In this document: piece by piece, positions 28,645 through 64,000 of the stretch
Layout of the letters: the number at the start of each line of letters is the position of its first letter
How positions within the stretch are numbered: the first letter of the stretch is position 1
Origin: Olsenella sp. Marseille-P4559
GTDB taxonomy: Bacteria > Actinomycetota > Coriobacteriia > Coriobacteriales > Atopobiaceae
Reading direction: 5' to 3'
Length of the DNA stretch: 64,000 bases
Assembly (NCBI RefSeq): GCF_900605015.1
Contig: NZ_LR027575.1
Span: forward strand, 54,690-118,689
Notes under the pieces: model-generated
The model's database searches: none
What the model saw: only the letters and a program-made list of their open reading frames with translations
What the model was told of the DNA's origin: nothing
Made by a program: the position numbers and the translations under genes

Positions 28645-28842
28645 GGGTTTCCTTTCGGGTCTTGTGCCAAGGTACCTCGCGGCGAATAAGCCAAGAAGAC
28701 AGTATACGTTGCCGATGTGTGCACATCGTTGGGTTTGCCAGGTGGCTTGGGGGCTCGTCGTCCATCCTGCCCCGCCACAGCCCTACCGTCCGCGTCGCAA
28801 CTTCTCCGCCTGCCACCTTTCCCAAACTTTTTGTTTGCATAG

Positions 28843-28866
28843 CGTTATAGTCTGTAAGCAAGAACG
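28843..28866 (+). promoter_or_regulatory. ModE-like box upstream of modA
   Basis: CGTTATA-N10-AAGAACG spans 24 nt with the layout of the ModE operator half-sites (CGTTATA facing TATAACG). The right half matches in 5 of 7 positions. A TATAGT -10-like hexamer lies inside it (28846-28851), so binding would block transcription. A perfect version occurs at 38283-38306. The rest of the galE-modA gap (28645-28992) has no gene. Confidence 0.4.
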
Positions 28867-28992
28867 CCGTCGTTGGACAGGCTTCACATCCTCGGCGGCG
28901 AAGTCCACAGGCACCACATGGGCGGCACGTGAAAAGCATCGCTCCAGAGATGCGCCCCAGGCAGGCATCACACCCAGGGAAAGGAAAGTACC

Positions 28993-38204: not shown

Positions 38205-38281
38205 GTATTGCAGAGAGCAAAGACCCAGTTAGAGACCGCATCCAACCAGGCAATGCGCTTCTCGGCGGACGTTTTGGGCCC

Positions 38282-38307
38282 ACGTTATACAACGAAAAAT
38301 ATAACGT
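38282..38307 (+). promoter_or_regulatory. Perfect ModE-like palindrome upstream of ssnA
   Basis: ACGTTATA (38282-38289), 10 nt, TATAACGT (38300-38307): a perfect 8-bp inverted repeat with the sequence and spacing of the ModE operator. It lies about 67 bp before the -35 box of the candidate ssnA promoter, a position suited to activation. No modE gene is in this window. Confidence 0.5.
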
Positions 38308-38373
38308 TACCGTCCACACCGGCAATCGACCGTACGCCGATGTTCTCCAGACCGCGGCACGCCAGACGTCAAT

Positions 38374-50068: not shown

Positions 50069-50230
50069 GGCGGCGCGCTCCCGGGTGGAGCGCTGCCTGT
50101 CACCGAGGAAGGTGCCTCACCTGGGAGTTGTTCGGTTCCACCCTCATTGCGTGCGGCTAACGTCGTGAGGTGCGGGTCATTGGGAGGGGGTGCGCGACGC
50201 ATCCCCCATGGAGGAAGGAAAGGGTACATC

Positions 50231-51355
50231 ATGAGTGAAACCAAGAAGTCTCTGTCCAACGTCATGCTCGACAGGCGCCAGGCAATCGCTCTGGGGCTTG
50301 GCAGCGTGGGCGCCCTTGCCCTTGCGGGCTGTGGCGGGTCCGGCAGCAGCCCCAGCTCGTCTGGCAGCTCCCCCTCTGGGGCCAGCTCCGAGCAGTCGAG
50401 CTACAAGGTCGCCATGATCATGAGCGGCATCATCACCGACGGCGGCTGGGACCAGGGCCACTACGAGTCCCTCAAGAGGGCCATCGAGTCCCACCCCAAG
50501 TGGGAGATGCTCGAGCCCAAGGAGAACACGGCCGATGCCGATGCCGCCACTGCGGCGCAGTCCTACGTCGACCAGGACGTCGACCTCATCATTGGCAACG
50601 GGAACCAGTTCGCCTCCGACTGGGCCGAGGTTGTGGCAGATGCGGCGGGCAGCCACCCCAAGGTCCACTTCCTCATCACGAACACCGATCCCGCCACCGA
50701 GATGACGGACTACGAGACCCTCGATTCCGTCGAGACGGTGCTTCCGGACTTTAAGCAGACCGGTGCCCTTGCCGGCGTTGTCGCTGGCCTCATGACCCAG
50801 ACCAAGAGCATCGGCTTCATCGGTGGCATGAAGCTTCCGTCCACCACCACGAAGTACTCCGCGTACCTCGCAGCGGCGCAGAAGGTCACGCCGGGCGTCC
50901 AGGGCCAGTACAACTTCGAGGCCGGCTTCACCGATGCCTCCCTGGGCACGAACCTCACCCAGCAGTGGATCAACTCCAACAACGTCGACGTCATGTGGGG
51001 CGACGCCTCCGCCGTCGACAACGGTGCGCGCAAGGTCCTTGAGTCTGCCGGCGCCGACACGCACTTTGACATTGCCCAGCCCATCGACATCGTAGGCGAC
51101 GACCAGCCCACCGTTGTGACCTCCACCGTCACGGACTGGATGATTGGCCAGGCCATGGACGAGATCGAGGCCGGCTCCTTTGGCGGCGGCAAGGCCATCA
51201 CCGGCAACATGAGCAACGGCGGCGTGTCCCTCGGCAAGTTCTCCGACAAGGTCTCCAAGGACGTGCAGGACAAGATCAACGAGTATGCCGAGCAGATCAA
51301 GGCCGGCACCTTCCTCACCGATGACGAGGTCTCGGCCATCTCCAAGACGCTGTAA
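50231..51355 (+). CDS. BMP-family nucleoside-binding lipoprotein 1
   Basis: Basic membrane protein (BmpA/PnrA-like) extracellular binder for purine nucleosides. The 374-aa product has a twin-arginine-type signal (DRRQAIALGLGSVGALALAG with lipobox LAGC), a Ser/Gly linker, and BMP motifs VAMIMSGIITDGGWDQGHYE, VDLIIGNGNQFASDWAEVVA, GFIGGMKLPSTTTKYSAYLA and NNVDVMWGDASAVDNGAR. ATG 50231 follows GAGGAAGGAAAGG. It is a close paralogue of the lipoprotein at 51986, with blocks of near-identical DNA. It supplies substrate to the NupOPQ-like core. Confidence 0.9.
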   Translation: MSETKKSLSNVMLDRRQAIALGLGSVGALALAGCGGSGSSPSSSGSSPSGASSEQSSYKVAMIMSGIITDGGWDQGHYESLKRAIESHPKWEMLEPKENTADADAATAAQSYVDQDVDLIIGNGNQFASDWAEVVADAAGSHPKVHFLITNTDPATEMTDYETLDSVETVLPDFKQTGALAGVVAGLMTQTKSIGFIGGMKLPSTTTKYSAYLAAAQKVTPGVQGQYNFEAGFTDASLGTNLTQQWINSNNVDVMWGDASAVDNGARKVLESAGADTHFDIAQPIDIVGDDQPTVVTSTVTDWMIGQAMDEIEAGSFGGGKAITGNMSNGGVSLGKFSDKVSKDVQDKINEYAEQIKAGTFLTDDEVSAISKTL

Positions 51356-51432: not shown

Positions 51433-51930
51433 ATGTCGCGAAAGCAGTTCACTCGCGAGAAGGACGTCGCGCTTCTCGAGCGCGCCATCGAGGTCTCCCG
51501 AGCGTCACGCGAACATGGCAATACGCCGTTTGGCGCGATTCTCGTCTCGCCCTCTGGCGACGTCCTTCTCGAGCAAGAAAACGTTGAGATTGGGACACAC
51601 AAGTGTACGGGCCACGCCGAGACCCAGCTCATGGAGCATGCGAGCCAGCTCTACGACAGGGACTATCTCTGGGACTGCTCGCTGTATGCCTCCGCCGAGC
51701 CCTGCTCGATGTGTGCGGGCGCCATCTACTGGGGAAACGTGGGTCGCGTGGTCTATGCCATGACGGAGCGGCGCCTGCTTGAGCTTACGGGGTCAAACGA
51801 GCAGAACCCTACGTTTGACCTGCCCTGCAGAAGGGTATTCGCGGCAGGGCAGAAGCCCATCGAGGTCGTGGGGCCGTTCCCGGAGCTGGAGGCCAAGGCG
51901 GCCGCCGTGCACGAGGGGTACTGGGACTAG
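51433..51930 (+). CDS. guaD: CDA-fold nucleoside/guanine deaminase
   Basis: The 165-aa zinc deaminase of the cytidine-deaminase superfamily has the zinc motifs CTGHAETQLMEHASQL (His and proton-shuttling Glu) and SAEPCSMCAGAIYWGNVGRV (two Cys). The size and the C-terminus (LPCRRVFAAGQKP, HEGYWD) match GuaD/YwnA-like guanine deaminase rather than TadA. It would convert guanine to xanthine or act on a related aminopurine. Sits between the two BMP lipoproteins, so it is part of the nucleoside uptake operon. A second, unrelated guanine deaminase is at 55359. Confidence 0.85.
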   Translation: MSRKQFTREKDVALLERAIEVSRASREHGNTPFGAILVSPSGDVLLEQENVEIGTHKCTGHAETQLMEHASQLYDRDYLWDCSLYASAEPCSMCAGAIYWGNVGRVVYAMTERRLLELTGSNEQNPTFDLPCRRVFAAGQKPIEVVGPFPELEAKAAAVHEGYWD

Positions 51931-51985
51931 GTGCTTCAGAGCCTGTCGCGGAGCAGAAGTGTCGGTTGCAACTGGGGAGGAAGCT

Positions 51986-53074
51986 ATGAGAATGAACATA
52001 ACGCGTAGGAACGCGCTATCGCTTGGGCTGGGAGGGGCTGCCGTGGCCTGCGGGCTCTCGCTTGCGGCATGTGGCTCGTCCTCGAGCCCAAGCTCGACGG
52101 ACTCTGCCGAGAAGTCAAGCTACAAGGTGGCTCTGGTCATCAGCGGTCCCAAGAACGACGGTGGCTGGGGACAGGGCCACTACGAGTCGCTCCAGAAGGC
52201 AATCGAGTCCCACCCCAAGTGGGAGATGCTCGAGCCCAAGGAGAACACCGCCTCGGCGGACGCGGCCTCTGCGGCACAGTCCTATGTCGACCAGGACGTC
52301 GACCTCATCATTGCCGCTGGCAACGAGTTTGTCTCTGCGTGGGGTGACGTGGTTGCCGAGGCGGCCGATTCCAACCCCAACGTGCACTTCCTCATGACCA
52401 ACACCGATCCCGCAACGGACCTCGCGGACTACGGGACCCTGGTCAAGGTGGAGACCGTCCAGGTAAACCTCAAGCAGACGGGTGCGCTTGCCGGTGTGGT
52501 GGCTGGCCTCATGTCCAACACGGGCCATATCGGCTTCATCGGCGGCATGCGCCTTCCCACCACGCTCACCAAGTACGCGGCCTACCTCGCCGCCGCGCAG
52601 AAGGTGAATTCCAAGATCGAGGGCCACTACAACTTTGATGCTGGCTTCACGGATGCCTCGTTTGGCACCAACATCACAAACCAGTGGATCAACTCGAACA
52701 ACGTCGACGTCATGTGGGGTGACGCCTCCGCCGTCGACAATGGTGCCCGCCAGGCGCTCGAGGAGGCAGGCGTCGACACGCACTTCGATATTGCGCAGCC
52801 TATCGACTCCGTTGGCGCGGACAATCCCAGCGTTATCACCTCGACCGTCACGGACTGGATGTTTGGCCAGGCCATGGATGAGATCGAGGCCGGTTCGTTT
52901 GGAAGCGGTGCCATCATCGAGGCAAACATGGACAACGGTGGCGTCTATCTGGGGAGCTACTCCGACAAGGTCTCGCAGGGGGTTCAGGACAGGGTAAAGG
53001 AGTACTCCGAGAAGATTCAGGCGGATGCCTTCCTCACCGATGGCGAGATCGATGCGGTGAAGGGTACGTTGTAG
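51986..53074 (+). CDS. BMP-family nucleoside-binding lipoprotein 2
   Basis: The 362-aa paralogue of BMP1 has a TRRNALSLGLGGAAVACG signal with lipobox LAAC, then the same motifs: VALVISGPKNDGGWGQGHYE, VDLIIAAGNEFVSAWGDVVA, GFIGGMRLPTTLTKYAAYLA, NNVDVMWGDASAVDNGAR. The binding-fold DNA is near-identical to BMP1 in several blocks but differs around the ligand-facing segments (NGNQFASD against AAGNEFVSA). ATG 51986 after GGGGAGGAAG. A second binder could widen the substrate range. Ends before a terminator hairpin at 53101. Confidence 0.9.
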   Translation: MRMNITRRNALSLGLGGAAVACGLSLAACGSSSSPSSTDSAEKSSYKVALVISGPKNDGGWGQGHYESLQKAIESHPKWEMLEPKENTASADAASAAQSYVDQDVDLIIAAGNEFVSAWGDVVAEAADSNPNVHFLMTNTDPATDLADYGTLVKVETVQVNLKQTGALAGVVAGLMSNTGHIGFIGGMRLPTTLTKYAAYLAAAQKVNSKIEGHYNFDAGFTDASFGTNITNQWINSNNVDVMWGDASAVDNGARQALEEAGVDTHFDIAQPIDSVGADNPSVITSTVTDWMFGQAMDEIEAGSFGSGAIIEANMDNGGVYLGSYSDKVSQGVQDRVKEYSEKIQADAFLTDGEIDAVKGTL

Positions 53075-53347: not shown

Positions 53348-53443
53348 TGGCGCAATCCCACCATGGGACGGGCCCTGCGGCCGAGTGGTGATAACAGGTC
53401 ATTGTAAATGCAATGCACACAAGGGTTAGCTGTTCAGATGCAT

Positions 53444-53824
53444 AACGGTATATAAAATTTCAAATCAAGAATTACCGTTGGCGATACGGGTTCAACCGTT
53501 CGCCTGTATTGGGGGCCACTTCCAGGGAGCACGGGGATAACATCCGTATAGCAAAAAATAAATAAGCAGATAAAAAAACTCTTTGGCAGATTCACCGATG
53601 AGAACACCGTGGCCTTCGGGCTTATCACCAATGGAAACCAGGGCCACCCTCCCGGCGTCTGCCAATGAGAGCAAACACCCCGCATGTCAGTTCAACCGCG
53701 CACCTGCCGGCAGTCACGATGGCTGCATTGGCGAGCTCCGATAGCTCGCTGAGAGCGCGGCACCTTCAGACAACACATCAGCGAAAGCGCACCCGCTGGA
53801 ACCGCATCCGGTTCCCGGCGGGCG
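53444..53824 (+). promoter_or_regulatory. Structured leader of the purine permease gene
   Basis: Hairpins visible by eye: AACGGTA/TACCGTT (53444-53450, 53473-53479); GGCGA-t-ACGG/CCGTTCGCC (53480-53504); GCGAGCT/AGCTCGC (53731-53749); and a long stem 53787-53804 with 53808-53824, ending 20 bp before the ribosome site. TTAGCT (53426), 17 bp, TATATA (53449) is a possible promoter; it overlaps the first arm, so a start further down would drop that stem. An A-rich stretch lies at 53550-53580. No known purine riboswitch core is recognisable. Together with the repeats this fills the 789-bp gap after bmp2. Confidence 0.4.
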
Positions 53825-60690: not shown

Positions 60691-61197
60691 CTACCCCCAG
60701 CTCACGATAATGGTGCTGTTGTCGTGTATGCCCTCGGCGGCAAGCTCCTCTCCTGCCTTCACGTCGTAACCTGTGCGACGCAGACGGCGCAGGAAGGCCA
60801 CAAGCTTGGCGTTGTACTCGTTGAGCAGGCGCATCTGCTGCCGCGGAGAGATTAGTGCCTGCTCGCGCCCGTGGATGATGGACGAGATCGCATCCGCCAC
60901 AAGCACGTTGCTGTTGGCGAGGAGGTCGTTGTAGAACGCATTGCCAGCCCCGGCGCAGTCCGTCTCGCCCGGGGCAAACTTGAGCATCACCGACGTCCTG
61001 CCGTACATGGCATAGGTGCGGATGCGTGTGCTGGTCTGCCCCTCTGCGTTGTGCATGGCCCAGCGCAGGGCATTCTCAGCAAGGGTATCGGCCTCTGCCT
61101 GGGAGCGGCCAGGCTTCGCGTTTGCCGTGAGGGCTCTAGCCTCATCAGCAGGGATGAGCTCGGTGGGCTGTGGCATCTGTGAGACCGTCTCAGGCAT
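60691..61197 (-). CDS. Hypothetical protein, 168 aa, unknown family
   Basis: I do not recognise it. It starts MPETVSQMPQPTELIPADEA at 61197 after CGGAGGAC; the extension to 61383 has no conserved character. The C-terminal two thirds look folded (RIRTYAMYGRTSVMLKFAPG, then a helical NAFYNDLLANSNVLVADAIS, and a final GYDVKAGEELAAEGI). No signal peptide or membrane segment. Its first 17 codons and upstream region recur in degenerate form at 63133-63198, showing that the divergent promoter region was duplicated. It faces away from the C_GCAxxG gene. Confidence 0.7.
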   Translation of the reverse strand: MPETVSQMPQPTELIPADEARALTANAKPGRSQAEADTLAENALRWAMHNAEGQTSTRIRTYAMYGRTSVMLKFAPGETDCAGAGNAFYNDLLANSNVLVADAISSIIHGREQALISPRQQMRLLNEYNAKLVAFLRRLRRTGYDVKAGEELAAEGIHDNSTIIVSWG

Positions 61198-61212
61198 GAT
61201 GTCCTCCGTTCT
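61147..61212 (-). repeat. Duplicated segment B, copy 1 (start of the 168-aa gene)
   Basis: 66 nt matching 63133-63198 with seven differences, all transitions (by hand). It includes the ATG and the first 17 codons of the minus-strand gene. Confidence 0.85.
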
Positions 61213-61487
61213 GGAACCGCACCCCGCGGCAGGCCTGCTGGGTCGCGAGCGTCGTCCAGCCGATGATACCGCGAACTCCCTCCGGCCGGGGGACAATCCG
61301 ACCAGGGGACGGCCCGCCACCGTGGGCGTGCGCGCGGTCCCCCGGAGTTCCCCGCCGCTCGTCGAACGGGAGCCTAATGACAAGTTAGGCTTCCTTACAA
61401 ACTGTTATCATCCGCTGTGGCACCGTTATGCATGGGCATGGATAGCGGTGCCCATTGCGGTCGCCCGCTGGGACACGGTTGGCGTGA

Positions 61488-61598
61488 GGACGCGCCCGGA
61501 CGGGGGAGTTGAAAACAGAAGAGGCACTCCGCAGGGCCTTCCCGGACGTGAGGACGTCAGCCATGCGTGGGCACAGGAGAGGAGCCACTATGGCAAAC
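61488..61598 (+). repeat. Duplicated leader segment A, copy 1 (before the C_GCAxxG gene)
   Basis: 111 nt matching 63229-63340 with nine substitutions, all transitions, and one inserted C in copy 2. It contains GACGT-GAGG-ACGTC and CCA-TGCG-TGG mini-hairpins and the AGGAGAGGAG ribosome site, and reaches into the first codons (ATG GCA AAC). The divergent gap 61198-61589 otherwise holds a TATCAT-type -10 candidate at about 61407. Confidence 0.85.
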
Positions 61599-62165
61599 GT
61601 TAAGATCAATGTGACTGAAGTAAGCCCGCATAAGGTGCAACGTCTGGCTGAGAGCTACTACAAGGGAGGGTTCTTCTGCGACGAGGCAGTCATGTGTGCC
61701 CTTCGCGATTCCTTCAAGCTCGATGTGCCTGAGCAGGTCATTGCAATGGTTTCAGGCATGTCGATGGGTGTCGGCAAGTCTGGCTGCATGTGTGGCGCTG
61801 CGAATGGCGGCGTCGCTGCACTCGGCCTGCTCTATGGACGCACCGCCCAGGATGGTCCTACTGACCCAGCCGTCCAGAGATGCATGAGCTTCACGCATGA
61901 GCTCCACGATTGGTTCCGCGACGAGAACGGCAAGCACGCCCTGTGCTGCCGCGTGCTTACCCGCGAGTTTGATATGGGTAAGGGAGCCCACAAGGAGCAG
62001 TGCATTTGGTTTACCGGCCTCTGCGCATGGAAGGTCGCTGCAATCGTGTGCCGCGAGGAGGGCATAAAGAATCTTGATGAGGGTGCCGAGGACGGCGCCG
62101 AGCCCCTGCCTCGCCTTAGGATCGAGGACGTTTTGCCCATGAAGAAGGAGGACTTCGTTGCTTAA
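61590..62165 (+). CDS. C_GCAxxG_C_C family redox protein
   Basis: The 191-aa protein has the family signature around C66/C68 (KSGCMCGAANGGVAALGL) plus flanking cysteines C30, C36, C119-C120, C138, C145 and C154; these are thought to bind metal or a redox cluster. The biochemical role of the family is unknown; members accompany anaerobic reductases. ATG 61590 has the AGGAGAGGAG site; an upstream TTG frame (61509) is not kept in the duplicate leader, so that leader is untranslated. It overlaps the transporter gene by 8 nt. Confidence 0.85.
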   Translation: MANVKINVTEVSPHKVQRLAESYYKGGFFCDEAVMCALRDSFKLDVPEQVIAMVSGMSMGVGKSGCMCGAANGGVAALGLLYGRTAQDGPTDPAVQRCMSFTHELHDWFRDENGKHALCCRVLTREFDMGKGAHKEQCIWFTGLCAWKVAAIVCREEGIKNLDEGAEDGAEPLPRLRIEDVLPMKKEDFVA

Positions 62166-63090
62166 GAGAGTCCCTCTTCCCATCACGGGGGTCATGCTAG
62201 GGTGCGCCGCTCTCGGTAACTTGCTGCAGGGCTACGGCGAAGGTTTCCATGCTGTCTTTGGCATCGTCGCGGTCCTGCTGGGTCTGCTCTTCGTAGCCAA
62301 ACTCATTGGAGATAACGAGTCCGTACAAAACGACATGAAGAACCCCATGCTTGCGAGCATCTCGGGCACCTTCTCCATGGCGTTGTTGCTGCTTGCCGGC
62401 TATGCAAAGCCGCTTTCTGCAGAGTTTGGCATTGTCCTGTGGTGGACTGGACTTGCCCTCCACATCTGCCTGATTGTGTGGTTCACGGTCAAGTATGTTG
62501 CCCATTTCGACCTCAGGCAGGTCTTCCCAAGCTGGCACATCGTCTACGTAGGCATCGCAGCCGCTTCTGTGACTGCGCCGGCCTTTGGCATGGAGGCAAT
62601 CGGTACGGCATGCTTCTGGTTTGGCCTCGTGACCTTTGCCATCCTTACGTTCGTGATCGTTAGGCGCTACACAAAGGTCGGGGAGCCTCCCGTTCCTGCG
62701 CGTCCTGTATTCTGCATCATGACGGCACCTGCCAGCCTTTGCGTTGCCGCATACGTCCAGTCCGTGACGCCCAAGTCGCTCGTACTGCTCGCTTGCATGG
62801 AGGTTGTCGCAACGGTTCTCTACGCTGTTGTTCTCTTGCGGCTTCCGAGATTCCTCAAGGTCACGGCTTTTGCGCCAAGCTACGCAGCCTACACCTTCCC
62901 GTTTGTGATTACCGCCATAGCACTTAAGCAGACCATGGCTTGTGTGGCCGCATTGGGGTCTCCCGCGCCTTGGCTTGCGCCGCTTGTGCTGGCTGAGACC
63001 ATTATTGCAACGGTGCTCGTGCTCTATGCGCTTGTCCGTTTCCTCATGCACATCTTTGGCGATGGGGGGACCCAGGTACAGAAAGCCTAG
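62158..63090 (+). CDS. TDT-family transporter (TehA/SLAC1-like)
   Basis: The 310-aa membrane protein has about ten hydrophobic segments, TDT/voltage-dependent anion channel fold: start TTG 62158 (LKRVPLPITGVMLGCAALGN), FPSWHIVYVGIAAASVTAPA, YTFPFVITAIALKQ. Members move small anions such as dicarboxylates, sulfite or tellurite. It overlaps the C_GCAxxG gene by 8 nt, so the two are co-translated. Substrate unknown; an anion handled by the redox proteins beside it is a guess. Confidence 0.83.
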   Translation: MLKRVPLPITGVMLGCAALGNLLQGYGEGFHAVFGIVAVLLGLLFVAKLIGDNESVQNDMKNPMLASISGTFSMALLLLAGYAKPLSAEFGIVLWWTGLALHICLIVWFTVKYVAHFDLRQVFPSWHIVYVGIAAASVTAPAFGMEAIGTACFWFGLVTFAILTFVIVRRYTKVGEPPVPARPVFCIMTAPASLCVAAYVQSVTPKSLVLLACMEVVATVLYAVVLLRLPRFLKVTAFAPSYAAYTFPFVITAIALKQTMACVAALGSPAPWLAPLVLAETIIATVLVLYALVRFLMHIFGDGGTQVQKA

Positions 63091-63132
63091 GATGCCTCAT
63101 GAGCCGTATCTTCCAATAGGAGATTAACCCCT

Positions 63133-63198
63133 AGCGGAGATGGGCTTGGTGGGCCGTGGCATCTGTGAGGCCGTCTCGGGCATGATGTCCTCCGTTCT
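63133..63198 (-). repeat. Duplicated segment B, copy 2
   Basis: Second copy of 61147-61212. The start of the 168-aa gene is kept (MPETASQMPRPTKPIS) but the frame stops almost at once, so this is a remnant. Between B and A only 30 bp remain here, against 275 bp in copy 1. Confidence 0.85.
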
Positions 63199-63228
63199 TG
63201 GGACCACGTCCCCGCAGCCCGCCGCCGT

Positions 63229-63340
63229 GGACGCACCCGGGCGGGGGAGTTGAAAACAGAAGGGGCACTCCCGCAGGGTCTTCCCGGACGTGAGGACGTC
63301 GGCCATGCGTGGGCACAGGAGAGGAGTCGCCACGGCAAAC
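63229..63340 (+). repeat. Duplicated leader segment A, copy 2 (before the YjiM-like gene)
   Basis: 112 nt matching 61488-61598. The position of the copy-1 ATG is ACG here (63332-63334), 5 nt after the same AGGAGAGGAG ribosome site. The following GCA AAC codons are also copied. Confidence 0.85.
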
Positions 63341-63937
63341 GAGTACGATTACCATAAGATGTGGGGCGACCTGGGTATGGGCGTCGAGGCACACGATGGC
63401 CTCCTTGGGGTCGTGGGCGAGATGCACCAGATCATGTACCTTACGCAGGAGAACAGGCCCGTATCCACGTCCTACCTCGATGGCGTTGCTGCCAACCTGC
63501 ACTCTGGACGCATTCGTGAGATGGTGGGCGGCCGTGGCGAGGGAGCTTCCAAGAAGATCATAGGAAGCTTCTATCTCTGCGTGTCCGAGGAGGTCGTAAC
63601 TGCGGCAGGAGCTGTCGAGGTGGGCCTCTGCGCTAGCGCCGAGTGGGCACCCGAGAAAGCCGAGCGCTACGTGCCGCACAACACCTGCCCGCTCATCAAG
63701 GGCTTCATGGGCTTCAAGATCGGTCGAGTTTGCCCCTACATCGAAAGCGCCGACCTCGTGGTAGGCGAGAGCACCTGCGACGGTAAGAAGAAGGCGTACG
63801 AGCAATTTGGAAAGCTCAAGCCCATGTACATCATGGACGTCCCGCACGTGCGCAACGATGACACCAAGCTCCAGTGGCGGCATGAGGTCCATACACTTGC
63901 GGCAAGGATTGAGGAGGAGATCGGCCAAAGATTGTAG
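63305..63937 (+). CDS. YjiM-like double-cubane / 2-hydroxyacyl-CoA dehydratase-type protein, frameshifted and cut by window end
   Basis: N-terminal half of a HgdB/YjiM-family iron-sulfur protein: SSAEWAPEKAERYVPHNTC-like region with NTCPLIKGFMGF, VCPYIESADLVVGESTCDGK and KLKPMYIMDVPH, cysteines that bind the double-cubane or [4Fe-4S] cluster. Start unclear: ATG 63305 is given, ATG 63359 has no ribosome site, and the homologous position 63332 is ACG. The frame ends GQRL at 63937, but a -1 shift at CCAAAG (63925-63930) restores family sequence (KIVEENLRTAIRPANDRRQA) to the window edge, so one A is probably missing. The family reduces small molecules with an ATP-driven activator, which would lie to the right. 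Confidence 0.8.
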   Translation: MRGHRRGVATANEYDYHKMWGDLGMGVEAHDGLLGVVGEMHQIMYLTQENRPVSTSYLDGVAANLHSGRIREMVGGRGEGASKKIIGSFYLCVSEEVVTAAGAVEVGLCASAEWAPEKAERYVPHNTCPLIKGFMGFKIGRVCPYIESADLVVGESTCDGKKKAYEQFGKLKPMYIMDVPHVRNDDTKLQWRHEVHTLAARIEEEIGQRL

Positions 63938-64000
63938 AGGAGAACCTGCGCACTGCCATCAGACCTGCTAATGACAGGCGTCAGGCCCTGCAGCGCCTCT

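Follow-up and report, generated by a model that had tools for sequence, protein, structure and literature searches.

Probable promoter capture and gene decay behind a repeated leader in Olsenella, with a candidate ModE box

Within a 64,000-nucleotide stretch of the Olsenella sp. Marseille-P4559 genome (contig NZ_LR027575.1, positions 54,690 to 118,689; here called the window), a two-segment repeat precedes both a C_GCAxxG family redox gene and a second gene first described as YjiM-like. The repeat is real and its origin is ordinary; the useful result is a promoter capture and a candidate ModE box. We consider it likely that a local duplication was followed by later losses, leaving copy 1 as a captured molybdate-linked promoter and copy 2 dead. 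Copy 1 probably drives the C_GCAxxG-SLAC1 gene pair under a regulator common to modABC and the Mo-hydroxylase/urate genes.

The recurrence of the two segments was reported in the initial annotation, together with 16 substitutions, all of them transitions, and one inserted C. Both reports are borne out. The copies are 89% identical in segment A and 91% identical in segment B, where copy 2 carries the inserted C (Table 1), and the match between them (E about 1e-40) lies far above chance; a recount gave 7 + 9 = 16 substitutions and 0 transversions. A third copy was sought in the 3.09-Mb genome (10 contigs) and none was found. Because one 540-kb contig carries both copies, and because they are about 10% diverged from each other, they do not represent an assembly duplicate. 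The spacing from A to B is about 275 nt in copy 1 versus about 30 nt in copy 2; the promoter-like block, the dyad and the stretch between the segments are present in copy 1 and not in copy 2.

Table 1. Features of the two repeat copies, the candidate ModE boxes and the ModE-type gene (window positions unless another locus is given)
Feature	Position	Strand	Basis or remark
Divergent gene, unknown family, 168 aa; 5' end is segment A	60691..61197	-	conserved in genus
Segment A of copy 1, at the divergent gene's start	61147..61212	.	repeat comparison
Promoter-like block CCTTACAAACTGTTATCAT (relatives: TATGAT)	61393..61411	+	near-invariant in genus alignment; putative role
28-bp dyad ACCGTTAT-N12-ATAGCGGT, candidate ModE box confined to copy 1	61422..61449	.	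consensus from PMC545781, PMC2700814
Hairpin 1, GAGG loop, outer pair broken in window; missing from copy 2	61481..61494	+	
Segment B of copy 1, covering the leader and the region of the C_GCAxxG start codon	61488..61599	+	repeat comparison
Hairpin 2, GACGT-GAGG-ACGTC, invariant in genus	61545..61558	+	
Ribosome-binding sequence AGGAGAGGAG ahead of ATG 61590	61575..61584	+	
Intact redox protein of the C_GCAxxG_C_C family (191 aa)	61590..62165	+	PF09719 1.7e-23; TIGR01909
SLAC1/TehA-type transporter, 310 aa	62158..63090	+	PF03595 8.4e-20
Segment A of copy 2, the divergent gene's 5' end as an orphan fragment	63133..63198	.	repeat comparison
Deletion junction; replaces about 250-275 nt of copy 1 (promoter-like block, dyad, part of hairpin 1)	63199..63228	.	
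Segment B of copy 2, what remains of the leader	63229..63341	+	repeat comparison
ACG where relatives' reductase starts ATG	63332..63334	+	alignment with relatives
Double-cubane reductase (HGD-D) pseudogene; frameshifts, stop at 63937	63332..64000, runs past window	+	
Dyad before modABC	28841..28868	.	modA starts 28993
Dyad before ssnA-ygfK-xdhD	38281..38308	.	ssnA starts 38621
Dyad before purine permease gene (53852)	53422..53449	.	same gene preceded by dyad in G002, G003
ModE-type HTH-MobA-like fusion	L134:1438-2463 (G000:C3 about 128.8-129.8 kb), about 10 kb beyond window		

The roles first given to the segments need correction. Segment A is not leader at all, as it covers the ribosome site and the opening codons of the divergent minus-strand gene, whose product shows 88-90% amino acid identity across six genus relatives and has no match in Pfam or NCBIfam. 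Nor does the repeat form a leader module that drives two redox genes: copy 2 is devoid of the promoter block and the dyad (best score -13.5 with the weight matrix described below), the start codon behind it reads ACG, and the gene itself is a pseudogene. In the relatives, this "YjiM-like" gene encodes an HGD-D family protein of about 425 aa, and one relative's protein scored 462 bits against NCBIfam NF040772 (double-cubane-cluster anaerobic reductase; cut-off 350). The reductase is thus the intact owner of the leader in the relatives, whereas in the window its frame is disrupted relative to the intact orthologues (one TGA and one TAG read through) and its last ~70 residues are missing, the match ending at about residue 354 of 425. 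As far as its sequence tells, copy 2 is a relic without function rather than a leader still at work. Immediately after the broken reductase (L009:6152-6406) lies an element of about 255 bp with inverted ends of ~49 nt; related arms occur at several other genome sites, and it looks like a MITE-like mobile palindromic element.

Gene order in the relatives suggests how this arrangement came about. All six genus relatives (G001, G002, G003, G005, G006 and G007) have the leader in single copy, directly before the intact reductase. In G003 the reductase is followed by C_GCAxxG, SLAC1 and a purine permease, while in the five others the permease directly follows the reductase and the C_GCAxxG-SLAC1 pair is missing from the locus. 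The window has the leader, C_GCAxxG-SLAC1, the shortened second leader and the broken reductase, in that order. The ancestral order would have been the divergent gene, a promoter with ModE-type box and leader, the double-cubane reductase, (C_GCAxxG and SLAC1, as in G003) and the purine permease. In the window strain, the unit from the divergent gene's start onward would then have been duplicated. The first unit would have lost its reductase, so that promoter and leader were joined to the C_GCAxxG start codon, and the second would have suffered deletion of promoter and box and decay of the reductase. ATGGCAAACG / ATGGCAGACG at the two start codons would have given short homology for the join. 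We infer this sequence of duplication and loss events from the gene orders.

The same short homology would serve the main alternative route, in which C_GCAxxG-SLAC1 was inserted between the leader and the reductase, with the leader duplicated meanwhile; copy 1 would be live and copy 2 dead as before. The pair is missing at the locus in five of the six relatives and, in other Olsenella (L050, L052), lies upstream of the reductase, as such a route would have it. We nevertheless hold insertion to be rather unlikely, as the pair immediately follows the reductase at this locus in G003, which makes duplication and loss simple, and as neither terminal repeats nor a transposase were seen at the joins. 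The initial suggestion that a duplication of recent date supplied a promoter ready for use comes close for copy 1, where the C_GCAxxG gene now sits behind the relatives' reductase promoter; copy 2 is dead.

The initial annotation also raised the possibility that a redox regulon shares a structured, riboswitch-like RNA leader, both copies being functional. Both GAGG-capped hairpins are indeed preserved across the genus and also in G056, a member of another genus, where A-T replaces T-A as the closing pair of hairpin 1 and the loop stays as it was, and covariation in the leader alignment scored 0.165 versus 0.125 in shuffles. However, that alignment holds seven closely related rows, in which hairpin 2 never varies and three stem pairs show double changes, against a shuffle mean of 2.7. 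Folding energies equal those of shuffles (z +1.07 for copy 1, +0.61 for copy 2 and -0.46 for G002). Of the mini-hairpins noted initially, GACGT-GAGG-ACGTC occurs in copy 1 and copy 2 alike, yet the full leader shows no folding advantage over shuffles; hairpin 1 is partly broken in copy 1 and gone from copy 2, whose gene is broken as well. Searches of the window and the six relatives against Rfam (E up to 5 / 1) gave no relevant match, the sole match being mir-2001 (E 0.28, far under the gathering score). The Moco RNA motif (PMC2408646), which would regulate genes of this type, had no match in the locus or the relatives in this search. A covariance-model search for the leader before other reductase genes had been proposed as a check. 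Our model (R1), run on 140 family genomes, found the leader in the six relatives, in the two window copies and in G056 before an intact reductase, and nowhere beyond this reductase's leaders and the window copies. The leader is one gene's, not a regulon-wide element, and a riboswitch-like leader is very improbable. The kept GAGG hairpins and the pair swap in G056 may be a weak sign of local RNA function in the relatives. Two further candidates were rejected: the idea that the GAGG hairpin pair is an RNA of the whole family, since the pair was seen only in this genus and one further genus, and a 25-nt motif that at first looked common to many genera and is just the ribosome site plus ATGGCAGA.

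The transition-only divergence had been put down either to mutational bias or to RNA that must keep its wobble pairs. The first of these fits, and our best reading is DNA under little constraint exposed to a mutation spectrum rich in transitions. MutS and NucS were sought in the window genome and neither was found; a published survey likewise reported neither in any Coriobacteriia analysed, and deletion of nucS in Mycobacterium smegmatis yields transitions only (PMC5290159). The transition bias fits a lineage lacking mismatch repair, to which it may be linked. Transitions make up about 54-77% in same-region comparisons between close relatives, a rate that makes 16 of 16 unusual (about 4e-4 at 0.61). 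The pattern is less unusual at the rate of the changes specific to the decaying reductase, 59 transitions to 19 transversions (0.76), which gives a probability of about 0.01. The relatives' range argues against an extreme bias, and the 16:0 pattern was picked for being striking. Selection for wobble pairs would also give 16 transitions among 16 differences. We find it hardly credible, since the relatives' orthologous leaders differ by many transversions, even in the conserved 3' part, segment A shows the same pattern and is coding DNA of another gene, copy 2 is dead, and the bias suffices. The copies of the palindromic element (ts:tv 39:65) were set aside as not comparable, being shaped by pairing as well as divergence.

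The part of copy 1 that folds well (z -5), and the sole one, is the dyad. Its 28-bp spacing is fixed and its central sequence free before reductase orthologues in three genera (g1, g25 and g18) and, imperfectly, in a fourth (g21); fixed spacing across genera combined with a free centre indicates a protein-binding site. With two or fewer mismatches, the dyad was found in 54 of 140 family genomes, and a reversed control pattern in few. We trained a weight matrix on other genomes only and scanned it over 75 kb of the window genome. Exactly four sites emerged (61422, 38281, 53422 and 28841), with scores of 18-25; the next real site scored 2.7, and the best score in 20 simulated sequences was 11. 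A dyad with three mismatches before xdhA (56736) was not above this null and was discarded. Among the genes that follow the dyad in other genera are some that, judged by eye from sequence, resemble YqeB, YqeC and YedF. The G056 reductase leader (L084 / L077) keeps the dyad along with both GAGG hairpins, the closing pair of hairpin 1 being swapped. Upstream of the reductase in G040 (L090) there is a perfect dyad, ACCGTTAT-N12-ATAACGGT, without the GAGG hairpins; the dyad is therefore more widely conserved than the hairpins.

The Escherichia coli ModE consensus is ATCGNTATATA-N6-TATATANCGAT (PMC545781, PMC2700814). As in a ModE box, the dyad spans 28 bp with CGNTAT...ATANCG half-sites 12 bp apart, adjoins the presumed transcription start and also precedes modABC and molybdoenzyme genes. 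It differs in that position 2 of the half-site is C in the window and T in E. coli, and in that the 61422 site does not retain the inner TA steps found in the E. coli core. Half-site spacing and recurrence before molybdate transport and molybdoenzyme genes are thus those of a ModE box. We regard the dyad as a putative ModE box, to which a ModE-type protein would bind.

Given its conserved anatomy, copy 1 would act as a promoter. Its dyad sits a short way downstream from the -10-like block, a position in which a bound repressor would shut off transcription, and the transcript would span both C_GCAxxG and SLAC1. Through the regulator, copy 1 would be coupled to molybdate or cofactor supply, like modABC and the urate/xanthine genes. 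The anatomy and its conservation can be read directly from the alignments; promoter activity, binding, sign and signal are predictions from them.

A candidate regulator is encoded about 10 kb beyond the window (Table 1). Its likeness to ModE (TIGR00637) is an N-terminal ModE-type HTH, matched with 53.6 bits (E 4.9e-14, model positions 3-84 of 100), which is under the NCBIfam cut-off of 98.5 bits; hence we call it ModE-type only. Unlike ModE, it carries no molybdate-binding domain, the HTH being fused instead to a MobA-like nucleotidyltransferase (PF12804): Pfam found no MOP/TOBE domains in the protein, only HTH_1 and MobA-like/cytidylyltransferase domains. The gene adjoins an amino-acid-kinase family gene (carbamate-kinase-like), in the region of the purine cluster. 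This anaerobic urate/purine degradation cluster (window 38621-60609 and L009:6789-11154) encodes SsnA, YgfK, an XdhD-like fusion, a guanine-deaminase-like amidohydrolase, XdhABC, NCS2 permeases and diaminopropionate ammonia-lyase. At 50147-51355 and 51779-53074 of the window lie tandem lipoprotein-like solute-binding paralogues with 77-82% DNA identity (300-nt blocks). The redox regulon envisaged by the initial annotation finds no support as an RNA but returns in another form, with a ModE-type DNA dyad linking the promoter to molybdenum and purine genes. Tentatively, and with more doubt than confidence, we propose that the Atopobiaceae ModE-HTH-MobA-like fusion, having no molybdate-binding domain, may control a regulon of molybdate uptake, anaerobic urate degradation and the double-cubane reductase, sensing cofactor supply via its enzyme domain, and that C_GCAxxG-SLAC1 may have been drafted into it by promoter capture in the window strain.

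The striking repeat ahead of the two "redox" genes is best read as a mark left by promoter capture and a gene's decay, not as a shared RNA switch. Its transition-only divergence offers a natural, if small, sampling of the mutation spectrum in a class that reportedly has neither of the two known mismatch-repair systems. Moreover, it exposes a testable molybdate regulon over anaerobic purine degradation in Olsenella-like gut bacteria.
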